From assembly GCA_947628585.1 (NCBI GenBank), contig CANRAL010000011.1:1-37460 (forward strand): DNA of 37,460 nucleotides, read 5' to 3'. The DNA comes from an uncultured Bacilli bacterium. Its GTDB lineage: Bacteria; Bacillota_I; Bacilli_A; RF39; UBA660. Of this stretch, positions 17,639 to 29,271 are shown piece by piece; the first letter of the stretch is position 1; every line of letters begins with the position of its first letter. The translations under genes were made by a program, and so were the position numbers. Below the pieces are notes generated by a model. The model saw only the letters and a list, made by a program, of their open reading frames with translations. It searched no databases and had not been told where the DNA came from.

Positions 17639-17668
17639 ATTTTAACATTAAAATATATGAAAAAGCAA
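17639..17668 (-). promoter_or_regulatory. Candidate promoter of the ribosomal cluster
   Basis: The minus strand has TTGCTT, an 18-base spacer and TAAAAT preceded by TGT (extended -10). It overlaps the 3' part of the terminator of the upstream surface protein gene. A second TGTTAAAAT occurs at 17577-17585 and could be an alternative, giving a shorter leader. Confidence 0.4.
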
Positions 17669-17692
17669 GTCTTTTTTTCCAAAAACTTGCTT
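17660..17692 (-). terminator. Terminator of surface protein copy 1
   Basis: The minus strand reads AAGCAAGT, a 14-base loop, then ACTTGCTT followed by TTTC. It begins a few bases past the stop codon of the 803-residue gene. Confidence 0.65.
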
Positions 17693-17695
17693 AAA

Positions 17696-20107
17696 TTAAA
17701 AATCTAAAACAGGATAATCACTACCTAATTTCCATTTGCTTAATGTATAACCTTCCAGTGATAGATCTATTTCTTTTAAATCTATACCTTCTATATTTTG
17801 ATTTAAAGTATTTACAAAATTTTGTTTTTTTATTTCATCTATAGTAATTGATGTTCCAACATTATCTAAATTTGAACCAGCTATATTTGCATTATTTAAA
17901 TAATAATTATATTCTATTTTATTATCTGGGCTAGAACTGATTTGAGCTAAGCTATATTTAGTTATAGCATCTATTGTTCCAATATTATATGTATTTTTTA
18001 AATAAATTTTTCCACCCATATTTATAATTCCACTAGCAATATTTTTGGCAGTAATATTTCCTTTATTATAGGAATTAATAATTGATACTGTAAAATTATT
18101 AAAATCACCGCCAACTCCAATTAATCCACTACTCACTTCAGAGGTTCCTGTTTTTTTGGTATTATTTATGACATCTCCTAAATTATATGAGTTTAAAACA
18201 GTAAGTTTTGCATTGGTTAATTTATTTAATCCAGCATGGCCTATTAAACCGCCTGCATAAGTTATTCTATTTTCAAATGAGTCGCTTGTAACATTTCCAG
18301 TATTATAACATTTATCCATAATTAATTCAGCATCATAAACTAAACCAATAATTCCCGCAGTTCTAAAAGAACCGGTTACGTTTCCTGTGTTATAAGAATT
18401 AGAAACTATATTAGTATCAATTTTAGAATTTTGAATTATCCCAACTAATCCGCCTACCCAACTATTATCGCTTGTTTTTCCAATAATATTTGCAACATTA
18501 TAACAATTATCAATACTAATTTCTCCAGCTACTCGACCAATAATACCTCCAGCATCAATTCCCTTAACCGTTGAATCATTATTTATTCCATTACTAGAAC
18601 CGGTTATATTCACTATTCCATAACTCATTCCCATTAAACCGCCTGTATGATTATCAAAATTTCCGCCAATATATCCTTCAACATTCCCTTCATTATGAGA
18701 ATTTTTTATAATTGTCAAATTTGTGTTACTAGAATCTTTTCCTAAAAGTCCCCCAGCATAACTTCCTAAATTATTTGTTACTTCTCCTTTATTAATACTA
18801 TTTTCAATTGTTAATACTCCATCTGTACGACCAATTAATCCCCCAGTACTTGCACCATTAGTTATTTTACCATTATTTATACAATTTTTAATCGTTGTAA
18901 TTCCACTACCATTGTTATTACCTATAATTCCTCCCGTTAGCCATTCATTACTTTCACTTGTTACATTTACATTATTAACACAATTTTCAATATTTATTTG
19001 ACAACCCAAATTTTCTCCAATTATTCCACCTATTGTTGCTCGTACTGCGCTTGTTATTTCACCTGTTATTGTTAAATTTTTTATTTCTATTTTTGAATTT
19101 CCAGACATCATACCAAATAATCCTAATCTTGCATCGGCTACTGTATTTGATATATGAATATTTTTAATTGTATTATTTAATCCATCAAAATTACCTGAAA
19201 AGGCATTAACATTACTATAACCTATTGGTGTGAATCCTTTTCCATTTTTATCTGTTAATTCATTCATTAAGGCTTCACTACCTGTTTGGTAATCACTTAT
19301 ATTTCCAAAATCTAAATCTTTTGTTAATATATAATACTTTCCTTCTTTACTATCTCCTTTATTTACTTCTTCACTTAATTTTACTAAATCATTTATGGTA
19401 CTTATTTCATTTAATAATTTTTCTTTGGTTAATATTATTTTTCCTTCAAATTTCTTTCCTGCATTTAGTTGTTGATTATAATCTAAATTCTTAAATATTA
19501 TCGTTATCTTCCATTCATCGGTTGTACTTCTTGTATCACTTCCTACTACCCTTATTACTTCATCTTCGGCTATTGCATATAAACCTTCTGCTTCCGTTAT
19601 ATCATATCCTTCTGTTGTTTTATTTAATCTTTTCTTTATTTCATACTCATTTTCATTTTTTTCTACTTTTATTACTAATTCAGGTATTCCTTTATATTCT
19701 TCTAAATTTTCTTTTTCTTTTGCTTCTTTCGTTATAAACTTTTTTATTTCTCCTTCTTTTTCATAACTAGAATATTCTATTTCATTATTTTCTATTAATA
19801 TATAAACATTATATGTTGCTTCGGCTTCATTGGTTGTATTATTCGCTATTAAGGTGGCTTTAGCTATACTTGTTTCACTTACATCATCTCCATCTTGTTG
19901 TAAATTTTCTTCACTTATATTTAAAGTTATTCCTTCATCAGTTAAAAAAGATAAATCATCCACTGTTCCACTTGTTGTATTTATATTAGCTATTGTAGTA
20001 TTTCCATTATTACTTTGAAAATAAGCATAAGTTGCACCAATCACAACTATTAATATTACAAATAATCCTATTATAGACAATATTAATGACTTTTTCTTAT
20101 TTTCCAT
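17696..20107 (-). CDS. GLUG-repeat surface protein, copy 1 (803 aa)
   Basis: The N-terminus MENKKKSLILSIIGLFVILI continues into GATYAYFQS, a membrane-spanning signal like those of TasA/CalY-type proteins handled by SipW-like peptidases. Residues about 35-230 form an extracellular domain. From about residue 300 to 770 there are roughly eleven repeats of a GGIIG/GGLIG core followed by an NCYN-like strand and a turn, the pattern of the GLUG family of beta-helical surface repeats. The end (YTLSKWKLGSDYPVLDF) is shared with copy 2; there is no LPxTG-like signal, so anchoring is through the N-terminus or by release. I use the third in-frame ATG (20107) because it aligns with copy 2. The N-terminal half is almost identical to copy 2, while the repeats differ. 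Role in adhesion is inference. Confidence 0.82.
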   Translation of the reverse strand: MENKKKSLILSIIGLFVILIVVIGATYAYFQSNNGNTTIANINTTSGTVDDLSFLTDEGITLNISEENLQQDGDDVSETSIAKATLIANNTTNEAEATYNVYILIENNEIEYSSYEKEGEIKKFITKEAKEKENLEEYKGIPELVIKVEKNENEYEIKKRLNKTTEGYDITEAEGLYAIAEDEVIRVVGSDTRSTTDEWKITIIFKNLDYNQQLNAGKKFEGKIILTKEKLLNEISTINDLVKLSEEVNKGDSKEGKYYILTKDLDFGNISDYQTGSEALMNELTDKNGKGFTPIGYSNVNAFSGNFDGLNNTIKNIHISNTVADARLGLFGMMSGNSKIEIKNLTITGEITSAVRATIGGIIGENLGCQINIENCVNNVNVTSESNEWLTGGIIGNNNGSGITTIKNCINNGKITNGASTGGLIGRTDGVLTIENSINKGEVTNNLGSYAGGLLGKDSSNTNLTIIKNSHNEGNVEGYIGGNFDNHTGGLMGMSYGIVNITGSSNGINNDSTVKGIDAGGIIGRVAGEISIDNCYNVANIIGKTSDNSWVGGLVGIIQNSKIDTNIVSNSYNTGNVTGSFRTAGIIGLVYDAELIMDKCYNTGNVTSDSFENRITYAGGLIGHAGLNKLTNAKLTVLNSYNLGDVINNTKKTGTSEVSSGLIGVGGDFNNFTVSIINSYNKGNITAKNIASGIINMGGKIYLKNTYNIGTIDAITKYSLAQISSSPDNKIEYNYYLNNANIAGSNLDNVGTSITIDEIKKQNFVNTLNQNIEGIDLKEIDLSLEGYTLSKWKLGSDYPVLDF
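19361..19834. repeat. 474-bp tract apparently identical to 28457-28930 (copy 1 side)
   Basis: Compared base by base by eye with a constant offset of 9096, I found no difference in this stretch. Flanking bases of the two genes do differ (19358, 19360 and 19835 are the nearest mismatches). It encodes the middle of the shared N-terminal domain. Confidence 0.8.
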
Positions 20108-20148
20108 ATATATCATCATCCTTTTATCAAATACTCTATCTAAAGCCC

Positions 20149-20175
20149 ATTTTACTATATATATATATATATCAA
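20149..20175 (-). promoter_or_regulatory. Promoter of copy 1 with a (TA)n spacer
   Basis: The minus strand reads TTGATA, then a TA repeat, then G and TAAAAT, with a 15-base spacer. The uninterrupted alternating TA tract is 17 bases (20156-20172). The same layout and length occur before copy 2. A spacer of 15 is short for a housekeeping promoter; one added TA unit would give 17. Confidence 0.55.
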
Positions 20176-20199
20176 GCGTTGGTTTTTTAATTTAAAAAA

Positions 20200-20218
20200 T
20201 TTGACAAAAGTTTGACAA
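20200..20218. repeat. TTTGACAA direct repeat upstream of copy 1 promoter
   Basis: TTTGACAA occurs twice at 20200-20207 and 20211-20218, an 11-bp period, about one helical turn. It lies about 25 bases upstream of the -35. The same pair is present before copy 2. Confidence 0.6.
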
Positions 20219-20223
20219 TATAA

Positions 20224-20252
20224 AAACACTATCCATTTTCGAATAGTGTATG
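20224..20252 (-). terminator. Hairpin ending the higBA transcript; shared with copy 2 locus
   Basis: The minus strand reads CACTATTC-GAAAAT-GGATAGTG followed by TTTTTATATTG. It serves as a terminator after higA. Nearly the same sequence follows rpmE at 29316-29338, so it seems to belong to the duplicated surface protein cassette. Confidence 0.65.
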
Positions 20253-20265
20253 CAATATCAAATCT

Positions 20266-21357
20266 TTAAATATTATCAACCCATTTATATCTTTCACGAT
20301 ATTTTGCCATAAAACTATAATCCTCATTTTCCCTTTGCATTCTACCAATAACGATTCCTGGTTTTACATTTTGAGTTTGGGCAAAATTTTTAATGGAAGT
20401 AATATCTAATTTTGATTTCTTTAAAAATTTATTATAATCTATGTCATTTATCAATTGATTCTTTGCAAAATTATCAGCCCTTTTTTCAATTTCACTATCT
20501 ATAAAATAATAGTCAATGTATTGATTTTCAAAATCTTCATTTATTAAATGACCTATCTCATGAAATAACGTAAACCAAAATATATCAGAAAATGATTGGC
20601 GAAGTGTCATACAAAGTAATACCTTATCATTCTTTTTTTGAATATATCCTTGAACTGGGGCTCCAACAAAGTTATGGACAACTTCAAAAACTATTCCACA
20701 TTTAGAAAAAATATTTTTTAATTCCAAAATCATTTCATTAGCTTCAAGAAACATAGTTTTTTTTATTTCCAAACATTTGTCTTCTAATAATTTTTTATTA
20801 AATTTACAATCTACAATAGTCTTTTCCGTTAAATGTTCACATATTTTTTTCCATGCATATAAAATATTAACATTTACTCTTATTTTTTTAGATCCTCGAA
20901 AGGAAACTTGTTGCAATGGCAAATTAGGTATTGATAATAAATTATTAACACATAAAAATTTTCTCATATTTAAAAGAGTTTGAGCTTTAGTTGGTTCTTT
21001 AGCAATTATTTCATTTAATTCACAATATTTAACAATATCTTTTAATTCATTTAATACTTGAAATTCTTCTTTTTCAATATGATTAAGTTTTTCTAATTCT
21101 AATAATTCTTTATCATAGTTACCTTGTAAATTAATCCAAAATTCAGTTGGAATATTAAATACATATTCCAACGAATTAGCAAATTTAGAAGATATATTTT
21201 TTTTACCTTTTATTATTTCACAAATATGTTTAGGAGAATAACCAGTTCTTATCGCTAATTCTTCTTGAGACATTTTATTTTCATCTAACAATTCTTTAAT
21301 AGTTATTCCTGGATGAATTAATAAATCAAGGGATAAGCCATTCATTTTTTCCATCAT
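20266..21357 (-). CDS. higA: HigA-type antitoxin fused to an ImmA/IrrE metallopeptidase domain (363 aa)
   Basis: Residues about 14-70 form a Cro/C1-type helix-turn-helix of the HigA/VapI kind (ITIKELLDENKMSQEELAIR, TGYSPKHICEIIKGKKNIS). The C-terminal part, about 215-320, is an ImmA/IrrE-like zinc peptidase with the HEIGH motif (H266, E267, H270) and a downstream Glu in EIEKRADNFA (E291) as likely third ligand. The protein would neutralise the toxin encoded just upstream and repress the operon; the peptidase could cleave a partner or itself to release repression, which is inference. This fusion is known in the HigA group. Its start lies inside higB (32-base overlap) behind AAAGGAG, so the two are translationally coupled. 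Confidence 0.85.
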   Translation of the reverse strand: MMEKMNGLSLDLLIHPGITIKELLDENKMSQEELAIRTGYSPKHICEIIKGKKNISSKFANSLEYVFNIPTEFWINLQGNYDKELLELEKLNHIEKEEFQVLNELKDIVKYCELNEIIAKEPTKAQTLLNMRKFLCVNNLLSIPNLPLQQVSFRGSKKIRVNVNILYAWKKICEHLTEKTIVDCKFNKKLLEDKCLEIKKTMFLEANEMILELKNIFSKCGIVFEVVHNFVGAPVQGYIQKKNDKVLLCMTLRQSFSDIFWFTLFHEIGHLINEDFENQYIDYYFIDSEIEKRADNFAKNQLINDIDYNKFLKKSKLDITSIKNFAQTQNVKPGIVIGRMQRENEDYSFMAKYRERYKWVDNI

Positions 21358-21673
21358 GATATTCTATCACTCCTTTTATATTGACATTTTTGCATTCTTT
21401 TAAACCATTATTATCCATTTTCTCCGACAATGGTTCTACTATTAATCTATAATTTTTATTTAAATGTATACCAAATAAATTATTTAAATTTCCGGAAAGA
21501 GGATGAGGTTTTCCTAAACCATAATTTAAATATTCTTTAAAATTTGCTGAAGCTTTCATTTCATTTATTCTTTGAAAAAGCATTCTTGCCATTTCTAAAC
21601 CAACTTTTTTTACTAATTTATCTGCGTTAAAAATTATTTTTTTTACTTTAGGATCGTATACTACAAGTTGCAA
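21326..21673 (-). CDS. higB: HigB/RelE-like toxin (115 aa), TTG start
   Basis: The protein has the RelE-fold killer-protein pattern: an N-terminal helical part (MARMLFQRINEMKASANFKE), then GLGKPHPLSGNLNNLFGIHL and KNYRLIVEP, where the basic and aromatic residues of the mRNA-cutting site normally lie. Toxins of this family cleave mRNA on the ribosome. The start is a TTG preceded by AAAGGAGGG at 7 bases; no better ATG exists. A promoter and an inverted repeat lie just upstream. The toxin-first order matches higBA loci. There is no other sign of a plasmid or prophage around it. Confidence 0.83.
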   Translation of the reverse strand: MQLVVYDPKVKKIIFNADKLVKKVGLEMARMLFQRINEMKASANFKEYLNYGLGKPHPLSGNLNNLFGIHLNKNYRLIVEPLSEKMDNNGLKECKNVNIKGVIEYHDGKNEWLIP

Positions 21674-25771: not shown

Positions 25772-26605
25772 TTACATTAATTTTTGAACTTGTACTTTTG
25801 ATAAATTAGTTGCTTTAGCTATTTGTTCTATTGGTAAATTTATTTTTAATAAATTTTTCGCAATTTCGATTTGTTGCTTTTTCATCCCCTTATTCATACC
25901 TTCTTGTTCCGCATCTTCTTTTATTGTATTTATTAACATTTCATTATCTTTTTCATAGTCCCAATTAAATACAAATTCTTCATTCATTTTTTTCATTTTC
26001 TTTTCATATGCCATTATTATTTCATCTTCCTTTCTTTCTTTTCTTAATTGTTCTAATTCTTCTTTATCTAAACATAGCATTAATACATGAATATATTCTT
26101 TTACTTTTTCATCTTTAGAATACCATAATTCTTTTAAATAATCCATATTTATTTCTACTATTTGTAAATTTTCAATATACTTTTTCCCGGTTTTATTATC
26201 TTGCATAAAATGATTATATCTTTTTATTTTTCCTTTATTTCCATAATTTAAATTTATTTGATAAAATTTCTTTTCATTATTATAACTTTTACTATTACCT
26301 GTTAACTGATTATAAAGGCTTGTTATATATTTAAAATTCCTTTTTTTAATACTTTTACTTATATTACTATTTACTTCAATATTAACATAAGCATCTCTAG
26401 TCTCTACTAGAGAGTCCATTATCTTTACTCTTTCTTTTATATTCTTTACTTTATGTTCCGTAGATAAATTATTTATTACCTCTTCCTTAGTACCTATAAC
26501 TTCGGTTAATAAAGTATTTAAAAACATATAATTATTACTTAACATAATACTTTTAAATACTTTATCATATTTGCATGTCAGCCATCTTGTTTTTAACTTA
26601 GTCAT
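25772..26605 (-). CDS. Rpn/PD-(D/E)XK nuclease family protein (277 aa)
   Basis: Member of the large family of recombination-promoting nucleases (COG5464-like), often annotated as PD-(D/E)XK transposase. It is recognised from DKVFKSIMLSNNYMFLNTLL at the start, the nuclease core AYVNIEVNSNISKSIKKRNF with a following KYITSLYNQL, and the middle YNHFMQDNKTGKKYIENLQI. The C-terminal end KNLLKINLPIEQIAKATNLS is the usual small helical module of this family. In many relatives the core reads IEMQ/IEIQ; here it is IEVN, so catalysis is uncertain. I start at the ATG (26605), not the GTG of the track, since AGAAGG precedes it. The region upstream is a 41-bp tandem repeat. Confidence 0.85.
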   Translation of the reverse strand: MTKLKTRWLTCKYDKVFKSIMLSNNYMFLNTLLTEVIGTKEEVINNLSTEHKVKNIKERVKIMDSLVETRDAYVNIEVNSNISKSIKKRNFKYITSLYNQLTGNSKSYNNEKKFYQINLNYGNKGKIKRYNHFMQDNKTGKKYIENLQIVEINMDYLKELWYSKDEKVKEYIHVLMLCLDKEELEQLRKERKEDEIIMAYEKKMKKMNEEFVFNWDYEKDNEMLINTIKEDAEQEGMNKGMKKQQIEIAKNLLKINLPIEQIAKATNLSKVQVQKLM

Positions 26606-26609
26606 AAAA

Positions 26610-26691
26610 CCTTCTTTCACTTATATATATTCCCCTTAGATGGTTGATTTCCTTCTTTCACTTATATATATTCCCCTTAGATGGTCGATTT
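26610..26691. repeat. Tandem duplication, 41 bp x 2, upstream of the Rpn-family gene
   Basis: Two head-to-tail copies of a 41-base unit beginning CCTTCTTTCACTTATATATA, at 26610-26650 and 26651-26691, differ at one base (TTGATTT/TCGATTT). Each unit contains GTGAAAGAAGG on the gene strand, so the ribosome binding region itself is duplicated. Confidence 0.9.
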
Positions 26692-26700
26692 CCTTTTTTT

Positions 26701-26739
26701 ATTTATAATTTTTTTTATTTTATTAAAAAAATTATAAAT
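26701..26739. repeat. 15-bp perfect AT inverted repeat
   Basis: ATTTATAATTTTTTT, a 9-base loop, AAAAAAATTATAAAT. It lies between the tandem repeat and the terminator of surface protein copy 2. It could be a second terminator or cruciform; composition alone makes such repeats less surprising here. Confidence 0.5.
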
Positions 26740-26803: not shown

Positions 26804-29203
26804 TTAATAATCTAATGTTGGATAACCATTACTACCTAATTTCCATTTACTTAATGTATAACCATCTAGTAATGGATCTATTTCTTTTAATTCTTTACTA
26901 ATATCATTTTCTTTTATTGTTGTCTCATTAACTATATTTTTATTTAAAATATCTACAAGTAAATTATTTGCTTCGGTTATAGGAGTAGCATTAAGATTAA
27001 TATTACTTGCATCTAATCCACTTTTATAATAAGCATTATAAGTAACTTTATTTGATGCATTACCACCCAAAACAAAACCTATTCCATATTTGTTTGTTGC
27101 ATTTACAGTTCCTAAATTATATACATTATTTAAATATATCTTTAATAAATTTAATGGTTCATTATTCCACACAACTGCAATTCCAGTTGCATTATTATTT
27201 GCTTTAATATTACCAACATTATATGAGTTTACGATGTAAGCTTCGCTTGAATGAGCAAGACAGCCAACTATCCCTGTTATTGCATTTGCACCACTAATAT
27301 TGCCTAGATTATAGCTATTTAAAATTCTAAGTTTACACGTATAATCACATAAGCCTACTATTCCTCCTAAGTCTACATTACCAGAAAATTCTGTTTCAAT
27401 ATTTCCTTCATTAAAACTTTTATCAATAATTATACTACTGTTATTAACAAGACCAACTATTCCTCCCCCTCTAAATGAATTTATTATTTTATTATGATTA
27501 GATGAATTGGTTATTATACTTTTTGAAGAATTATATATATAACCAACTATTCCACCAACATATGAAGTTTGTAAACTTTCTCTTTCATCATTAATTTCAC
27601 CATTATTTTTAGCATTATTAATATTTAATATACCATTATTTTGTCCTATTATTCCTCCGGCCAAAATGTTAGAAACAGCATTATCTTTTGATATAGTAAT
27701 TTTTCCTTCATTTGATGAATTATTTATATTTATATTTCCTACAATTGTGTTACCAATTAAACCACCAATATTTTTGGCTGTACTTCCTTTTATTTCATTA
27801 TTATTATGACAATTATTCATTTCTAAATTAACTACATCGCCATCCATAGCCCCAATAATTCCACCAATTGTAGTTCCTACATTATTAATAACTTCTCCTT
27901 CATTAAAGATATTTTCAATTATTAAATTTCCACCTTGATAACTACCTAAAATTCCCCCAACGACTGCGCCACCATTAATAGTGCCTTTATTAACACAATT
28001 TATTATTTTAGATTCACTTGATTCGTTACCATATATCCAACTAACTATTCCACCTACAGCATACGAACCAAAATTATTTGTTATATTTACCTCATTTACA
28101 CAATTATCTATAATGCTGTTTTCTAATCTATTTACTATTCCACCAAGTGGGGTGGCTATATCTGTTGTTACTTCTCCACTTAATGTTAAATTTTTTATTT
28201 CTCCTTTTTGCACCCAACCAAATAGTGCATAATATGCATTTTGCGTTGTTTTATCTTTCAAATATAAATTTCCTATTTTATGATTTTCACCATCAAATGT
28301 GCCACTAAATGGTTTATCAATACCTATTGGTGTAAAACCACTTCCAGTAGTTAATTCACTCATTAAGGCTTCACTACCTTCTTGGTAATCACCTATATTT
28401 TCAAAATTTAAATCTCTTGTTAATATATAATACTTTCCTTCTTTACTATCTCCATCATTTACTTCTTCACTTAATTTTACTAAATCATTTATGGTACTTA
28501 TTTCATTTAATAATTTTTCTTTGGTTAATATTATTTTTCCTTCAAATTTCTTTCCTGCATTTAGTTGTTGATTATAATCTAAATTCTTAAATATTATCGT
28601 TATCTTCCATTCATCGGTTGTACTTCTTGTATCACTTCCTACTACCCTTATTACTTCATCTTCGGCTATTGCATATAAACCTTCTGCTTCCGTTATATCA
28701 TATCCTTCTGTTGTTTTATTTAATCTTTTCTTTATTTCATACTCATTTTCATTTTTTTCTACTTTTATTACTAATTCAGGTATTCCTTTATATTCTTCTA
28801 AATTTTCTTTTTCTTTTGCTTCTTTCGTTATAAACTTTTTTATTTCTCCTTCTTTTTCATAACTAGAATATTCTATTTCATTATTTTCTATTAATATATA
28901 AACATTATATGTTGCTTCGGCTTCATTGGTCGTATTATTGGCTATTAAGGTTGCTTTAGCTACACTTGTTTCGCTTACATCATCCCCATCTTGTTGTAAA
29001 TTTTCTTCACTTATATTTAAGGTTATTCCTTCATCAGTTAAAAAAGATAAATTATCTACTGTTCCACTTGTTGTATTTATATTAGCTATTGTAGTATTAC
29101 CATTTACACTTTGAAAATAAGCATAAGTTGCACCTACTACCACTATTAATATTACAAATATTCCAACAATTAATAATACTAATGATTTTCTTTTATCCTC
29201 CAT
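26804..29203 (-). CDS. GLUG-repeat surface protein, copy 2 (799 aa)
   Basis: Paralogue of the gene at 17696-20107 with the same plan: MEDKRKSLVLLIVGIFVILI membrane signal, GATYAYFQS, an extracellular domain to about residue 230, then roughly eleven GLUG-like repeats (GGIIGQNNG, GGIVGLVNN and others) and the shared end YTLSKWKLGSNGYPTLDY. Residues about 40-270 are nearly identical to copy 1. From about residue 285 the repeat parts have diverged strongly, so the two display different surfaces. The track starts at an upstream TTG; I choose the ATG that aligns with copy 1. The spacing from AAAGG to this ATG is long (13 bases) in both copies. Surface adhesion is inference. Confidence 0.82.
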   Translation of the reverse strand: MEDKRKSLVLLIVGIFVILIVVVGATYAYFQSVNGNTTIANINTTSGTVDNLSFLTDEGITLNISEENLQQDGDDVSETSVAKATLIANNTTNEAEATYNVYILIENNEIEYSSYEKEGEIKKFITKEAKEKENLEEYKGIPELVIKVEKNENEYEIKKRLNKTTEGYDITEAEGLYAIAEDEVIRVVGSDTRSTTDEWKITIIFKNLDYNQQLNAGKKFEGKIILTKEKLLNEISTINDLVKLSEEVNDGDSKEGKYYILTRDLNFENIGDYQEGSEALMSELTTGSGFTPIGIDKPFSGTFDGENHKIGNLYLKDKTTQNAYYALFGWVQKGEIKNLTLSGEVTTDIATPLGGIVNRLENSIIDNCVNEVNITNNFGSYAVGGIVSWIYGNESSESKIINCVNKGTINGGAVVGGILGSYQGGNLIIENIFNEGEVINNVGTTIGGIIGAMDGDVVNLEMNNCHNNNEIKGSTAKNIGGLIGNTIVGNININNSSNEGKITISKDNAVSNILAGGIIGQNNGILNINNAKNNGEINDERESLQTSYVGGIVGYIYNSSKSIITNSSNHNKIINSFRGGGIVGLVNNSSIIIDKSFNEGNIETEFSGNVDLGGIVGLCDYTCKLRILNSYNLGNISGANAITGIVGCLAHSSEAYIVNSYNVGNIKANNNATGIAVVWNNEPLNLLKIYLNNVYNLGTVNATNKYGIGFVLGGNASNKVTYNAYYKSGLDASNINLNATPITEANNLLVDILNKNIVNETTIKENDISKELKEIDPLLDGYTLSKWKLGSNGYPTLDY
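28457..28930. repeat. 474-bp tract apparently identical to 19361-19834 (copy 2 side)
   Basis: Partner of the tract in copy 1, offset 9096. The supplied ORF track independently supports this: the plus-strand shadow ORFs at 19522 and 28618 have the same 71-residue translation. Confidence 0.8.
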
Positions 29204-29244: not shown

Positions 29245-29271
29245 ATTTTACTATATATATATATATATCAA
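29245..29271 (-). promoter_or_regulatory. Promoter of copy 2 with a (TA)n spacer
   Basis: The minus strand reads TTGATA, a TA repeat, G and TAAAAT, with a spacer of 15 bases, exactly as in copy 1. The alternating TA tract is 17 bases (29252-29268). Confidence 0.55.

Follow-up and report, generated by a model that had tools for sequence, protein, structure and literature searches.

Can a promoter whose -35 and -10 hexamers are held apart by a pure TA repeat act as a length-dependent switch for the gene behind it? The locus that raises this question lies in a 37,460-nt stretch of DNA (the window, taken at its whole length), which is contig C11 of the 1.24-Mb assembly of an uncultured Bacilli bacterium (the source genome, G000). 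On the minus strand, positions 20175-20149 read TTGATA, a 15-nt spacer (TATATATATATATAG) and TAAAAT, with the -35 hexamer at 20175-20170 and the -10 hexamer at 20154-20149. A preliminary description had reported these hexamers with a 15-base spacer of alternating TA, a reading that proved exact, the spacer being 14 alternating bases and then a G adjoining the -10. It had also assigned the promoter to surface protein copy 1, which holds for that gene, whose likely start codon (20107) lies about 40 nt downstream, but not for it alone, as an identical promoter (29245-29271, minus strand; tract 29252-29268) belongs to copy 2. The repeat itself is an A(TA)8 tract at 20156-20172 (minus strand; TRF: period 2, 8.5 copies, 100% match), the putatively slippage-prone part of the spacer, and it sits between -35 and -10 as in TA-spacer promoters of the Vmm and hif kind. 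Alternative -35 registers for the 17-nt tract, 2 or 3 bases upstream, were discarded for their poor match to TTGACA in all copies (by eye).

From the dinucleotide frequencies of the window, 0.0002 such 17-nt tracts are expected by chance per window and 0.008 per genome. The complete 27-mer occurs twice in the window (0 expected from shuffles of the window) and has 18 exact occurrences in G000, where reversed-pattern controls gave 0. That the tract is a functionless low-complexity run of an AT-rich genome would agree with the composition of the window (72% A+T) and with simple promoter scans, in which the region was not enriched in promoter-like sites. We nevertheless give this explanation almost no credence, given 18 identical copies against 0.008 expected, the placement of the tract between -35 and -10 every time, and the bias of the downstream genes toward exported products described below.

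Upstream of the -35, two TTGTCAAA boxes 11 bp apart (20195-20218, minus strand) form a candidate operator or UP-like element. Other paralogues carry a palindrome, ACTTTAC-n-TGTAAAGT, in place of these boxes, and in most copies the boxes or palindrome lie roughly 15 to 45 nt 5' of the -35; judging by these motifs, a shared regulator acting at the upstream boxes is possible. An intrinsic-terminator-like hairpin (20226-20249, minus strand) would insulate the promoter from HigB/HigA-like genes farther upstream. Those genes (20266-21673) have the same orientation and are separated from the promoter by the hairpin, so the tract is not common to two divergent genes. The antitoxin of the HigB/HigA-like pair has a C-terminal Peptidase_M78 (IrrE-like) domain. 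Comparison of the promoter region with phage records gave no match.

Proteins encoded downstream

Copy 1 (17696-20107, minus strand) encodes 803 aa from the ATG at 20107, which was judged likelier than the first ATG at 20119; AAAGGA at 20119-20124 (minus strand) is the likely Shine-Dalgarno sequence. The protein has a basic N-terminus, a transmembrane/SipW-like signal (GATYAYF), a beta domain and beta-strand repeats. Its predicted structure likewise shows a long helix at the N-terminus together with a beta domain and an extended run of beta strands; we make no claim about its fold, because the mean pLDDT is 68 and a comparison with the PDB gave no match at E < 0.001. On this modeled architecture, we regard copy 1 as exported and probably exposed on the surface. 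A terminator-like hairpin (17663-17692, minus strand) separates copy 1 from the S10 ribosomal-protein operon, and read-through from the gene into the operon was dismissed on that account. Copy 2 (26804-29203, minus strand) encodes 799 aa with a GLUG motif (PF07581, E = 9e-5), and GLUG motifs also occur in a relative from the sister species G019 (GenBank CANPZG, uncultured Bacilli assembly Lapin-005__bin107). Nearby, a 41-bp direct repeat (2.4 copies, 26610-26707) is found where a PDDEXK_2 ORF (25772-26620) begins.

The proteins behind TA tracts carry a basic segment and a long hydrophobic helix at their N-terminus, the helix in most cases terminating in GATYAYF or a closely related motif, and these N-termini resemble the SipW-dependent signal TIGR04088 in sequence. 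On copy 1 this model scored 10.7 bits, below its cut-off of 19 (E = 0.47), and on a relative from genome G051 22.4 bits, above the cut-off; a SipW-like signal peptidase (TIGR02228) was found in G000. An N-terminal hydrophobic segment, taken as an export signal, was present in 44 of 47 tract genes versus 2 of 25 genes behind ordinary promoters, or, collapsed by genome with rows assigned to genomes manually, in about 15/18 versus 2/22. These export signals suggest that TA tracts control surface-exposed products, in keeping with the preliminary description, which had taken the controlled gene to be a large, probably exposed surface protein of the kind usually subject to phase variation.

TA tracts across the source genome

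G000 contains 88 (TA)6 words per strand, all of them within 28 promoter tracts. The eighteen 17-nt tracts account for 54; C10, C27:61, C35 and C46 contribute 4 each, C40 and C34 3 each, C1 and C29 2 each, and C3:100 and C21:4135 4 each. Since these sum to 88, every long TA run of the genome is a promoter tract. The tracts at C3:100 and C21:4135 have other flanks, yet stand 5' of exported proteins of the copy 1/2 type, and wherever the downstream gene of a G000 tract could be read it encoded an exported protein. At C14, C22, C26:22491, C34 and C49 the gene is cut by a contig end or unread; the leaders there match the family leaders where present.

Tract lengths of the paralogues step by whole TA units, as in promoters of the Vmm and hif kind, with spacers of 13, 15 and 17 nt. 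One unit fewer than in the window gives the 13-nt spacers at C1:56972 and C29:17735, and one unit extra the 17-nt spacers at C10:18654, C35:10885 and C46:79. The latter C35 locus and C7:4081 are 90% identical over 2.2 kb, with tracts of 19 and 17 nt, respectively. Two copies, C27:61 and C40:9183, keep the tract and the -10 and have GGGTTGCAACC instead of TTGATA. Family members with interrupted tracts have spacers of 17 (C10:9257) and 18 nt (C29:6201), looking, in sequence, as if fixed near the optimum.

Spacing of tract and ordinary promoters

The strength of sigma-70-type promoters depends on the spacing of their hexamers, and we read this general relation together with the genome's own spacer histogram. 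Ordinary promoters were those in G000 and G019 that match TTGACA..TATAAT exactly and lack a TA tract. Their spacing was 16-18 nt in 53/76, with 17 nt the commonest in both species and 15 nt seen in none (0/76). Tract promoters rarely fell in the 16-18 nt range, with 3/23 versus 21/34 ordinary promoters in G000 (P = 3e-4) and 3/22 versus 32/42 in G019 (P = 3e-6), values that serve as a guide only, as paralogues were treated as independent although related. Across 386 same-family genomes, 29 of 49 non-tract matches had exactly 17 nt, and readable promoters of this class include those of RnpA-like housekeeping genes (RnpA by eye).

TA-spacer promoters in relatives and Clostridia

The sister species carries the promoter type of the window (type 1) and a second type with other flanks, TTGACAGAATA(TA)n-TATAAT, 5' of the same protein family. 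Type-2 spacers measured 13 (2 cases), 15 (6) and 16 nt (1, in which the two types are fused), and a related promoter with variant flanks, TTGACAATA(TA)n, has a spacer of 17 nt (1) 5' of a lipoprotein. TA-tract promoters with TTGACA recur in several genera among the 386 same-family genomes, their spacers ranging from 10 to 21 nt; taken over all other genera with TA tracts, spacers scatter from 11 to 23 nt. In G051, five operons in a tandem array encode GATFAYF proteins, their spacers measuring 15, 17, 17, 21 and 17 nt; two G051 copies that are 93% identical just upstream differ in spacing (17 versus 21 nt). G182 has four lipoprotein genes in tandem with spacers of 19, 15, 11 and 19 nt. Outside the family this second, TTGACA type was rare (2/392 genomes, a sample in which 18 were same-family members). 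In a scan of 84,980 species in the genome_contigs collection, pure type-1 tracts were confined to a few gut Bacilli and Clostridia, with tracts of 13-25 nt that in Clostridia stand 5' of lipoproteins and membrane proteins. Five Clostridia, from rabbit gut by name (L112, L125, L126, L147 and L150), combine a CGACAAAGTTTGTCG-like palindrome with a TA-spacer promoter; their tracts measure 13, 17, 21 and 23 nt, and several precede Ser-rich lipoproteins.

Uniform tract length and a fixed-promoter alternative

Two observations speak against a slippage switch. One shared length is found in 18 of the 23 G000 tracts with a readable -35 and in 11 of the 12 type-1 tracts of G019, which is tighter than free neutral slippage would leave, and the two copies with GGGTTGCAACC lack a TTGATA adjoining the tract. 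The uniform length could be due to gene conversion that homogenizes the copies, to mismatch repair or to selection for 15 nt, any one of which could suffice. Loss of mismatch repair, as far as MutS is concerned, was rejected as a cause of instability, MutS being present in 29 of 30 genomes of the genus. G000 has it twice, as full-length, 848-aa frames (C35:253 and C42:3397); two MutS in one small genome possibly reflect a second strain in the bin.

Alternatively, the promoter may be fixed and tuned. Its 15-nt TA spacer would then be the functional state, suited to weak or regulated expression (perhaps with an activator that binds the TTGTCAAA or TGTAAAG boxes), and the differences in length would be no more than occasional drift. 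This would account for the strong 15-nt mode across two species and two promoter types, for operator-like boxes at a fairly constant upstream distance and for the presence of MutS. Such a promoter would have no need of a pure microsatellite; interrupted tracts would do, yet those have 17 or 18 nt. The length scatter in other genera and the restriction of every long TA run in G000 to the 28 tracts also argue against it, and we consider it unlikely, although the most serious competitor of a slipping promoter.

Traces of exchange between copies

A 474-nt stretch of copy 1 (19361-19834, minus strand) is identical to copy 2 at 28457-28930, whereas outside this run the two genes are about 50-95% identical; their N-terminal halves are conserved and their C-terminal halves divergent. 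By sequence comparison, the identical run is best read as a recent gene conversion or exchange of the N-terminal part. In G019, promoter types 1 and 2 are joined inside the tract at C2:9564-9591, giving a 16-nt spacer. Observations of this kind are what one would expect if identical promoters and leaders supplied the homology for shuffling paralogue cassettes, the TA tract being a mere junction: the 474-nt identity, the type 1/2 join at G019:C2:9564 and the contrast between the N- and C-terminal halves all speak for it. Such an anchor would explain neither why -35 and -10 flank the tract and lengths step by whole units, nor the single-copy TA promoters of unrelated Clostridia. We think it quite improbable as the main role of the tract, and recombination may act alongside slippage rather than in its place.

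Proposed mechanism of switching

The purity of the dinucleotide tract, the whole-unit differences between paralogues and the preference of ordinary promoters for 17 nt together point to slippage-driven switching. We put at roughly 70% the probability that slippage makes these spacing promoters phase-variable in the manner of Vmm and hif, with the majority of copies one TA unit below the optimum. The promoter would be of the sigma-A type, with a (TA)n microsatellite as its -35/-10 spacer, one of about 28 such in G000. Slipped-strand mispairing would add or remove whole TA units and so shift the spacing among 13, 15 and 17 nt. The 15-nt state found in the window is predicted to be weak or off, one unit from on, because 17 nt is the commonest ordinary spacing in the source organism; 15 nt would thus mean low and 17 nt high output. 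If slippage is ongoing within a population, as the paralogues suggest, independent events at 28 loci would leave that population mixed in its surface-protein repertoires, and the benefit might lie in a varied surface in the face of phages, the host's immunity or conditions of attachment. The preliminary description had anticipated a spacing switch through loss or gain of TA units, and the comparative data from paralogues and relatives fit it: whole-unit steps, 16-18 nt in ordinary promoters but seldom in TA-tract promoters, 17 or 18 nt in interrupted tracts, and exported products of the controlled genes.

A broader claim, on which we are evenly divided, is that the promoters form a genome-wide contingency system of uncultured gut Bacilli, with 28 promoters slipping independently in 1.24 Mb, mostly one unit below the optimum so that one slip turns a gene on. 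Such promoters would have arisen more than once, given the two types within a single genus and the occurrence in further genera and in Clostridia, and would be exchanged among paralogues through recombination inside the tract.

Comparison with known systems

The mechanism is already known; the taxa and the protein family are new to it and the scale is unusual. Among open-licence papers, no report of TA-spacer promoter switches in the bacteria concerned was found, and microsatellite switching in promoter spacers has hitherto been described mainly in a few pathogens. If the reading is true, it would place 28 such loci in a presumed commensal with a small genome and extend the phenomenon to Clostridia and to several genera of the commensal's own family; it would link switching to a large exported-protein family of unknown role, and it would make surface variation of poorly known gut bacteria measurable straight from existing metagenomic reads.

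Dinucleotide repeats were measured in metagenomic reads of "Candidatus Mycoplasma girerdii" (PMC5476646), likewise an uncultured bacterium that lives with a host and whose surface-protein loci have dinucleotide tracts of variable length. There, reading-frame changes with mixed motifs were inferred and the variation came from reads; here it comes from paralogues and relatives. The vlhA genes of Mycoplasma gallisepticum, with a prevalent repeat number of 8 and an active number of 12 (PMC6258824), share with our set a large surface-protein family, a microsatellite in each promoter and a commonest length that is not the active one (here, by prediction), but their repeat is the trinucleotide GAA, about 40 nt 5' of the start and outside the -35/-10 spacer. 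In Haemophilus influenzae, a (TA)9-11 tract between hifA and hifB has been proposed to alter the -35/-10 spacing for a surface structure (PMC2651432). The preliminary description had likened the locus to hif, and the spacing logic is indeed alike; as the closest model, however, hif had to be given up, since its tract serves two divergent genes, whereas the window promoter has one downstream gene, an upstream terminator and a place in a 28-locus set.

In Mycoplasma mycoides, Vmm and the poly-TA promoters of lipoprotein genes offer the closest fit, surpassing hif because they are single-direction promoters. For Vmm, gains and losses of dinucleotides within the promoter spacer are reported to accompany the ON and OFF states (Persson 2002, as described in PMC10502178 and PMC2628566), and in M. 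mycoides subsp. capri 95010 poly-TA tracts with N = 10, 10, 12, 16, 15 and 15 stand 5' of lipoproteins (PMC3053259). These systems share with ours promoter TA repeats at several surface-lipoprotein loci, differing repeat numbers and a single direction of transcription. ON/OFF switching is described for Vmm and is deduced in our set, where most copies are of one length. The proteins differ too, Vmm-like lipoproteins there and SipW-type/GLUG surface proteins here, as does the number of tracts: in those genomes 5-6 tracts exceed about ten repeats, against 28 tracts in the genome described here.
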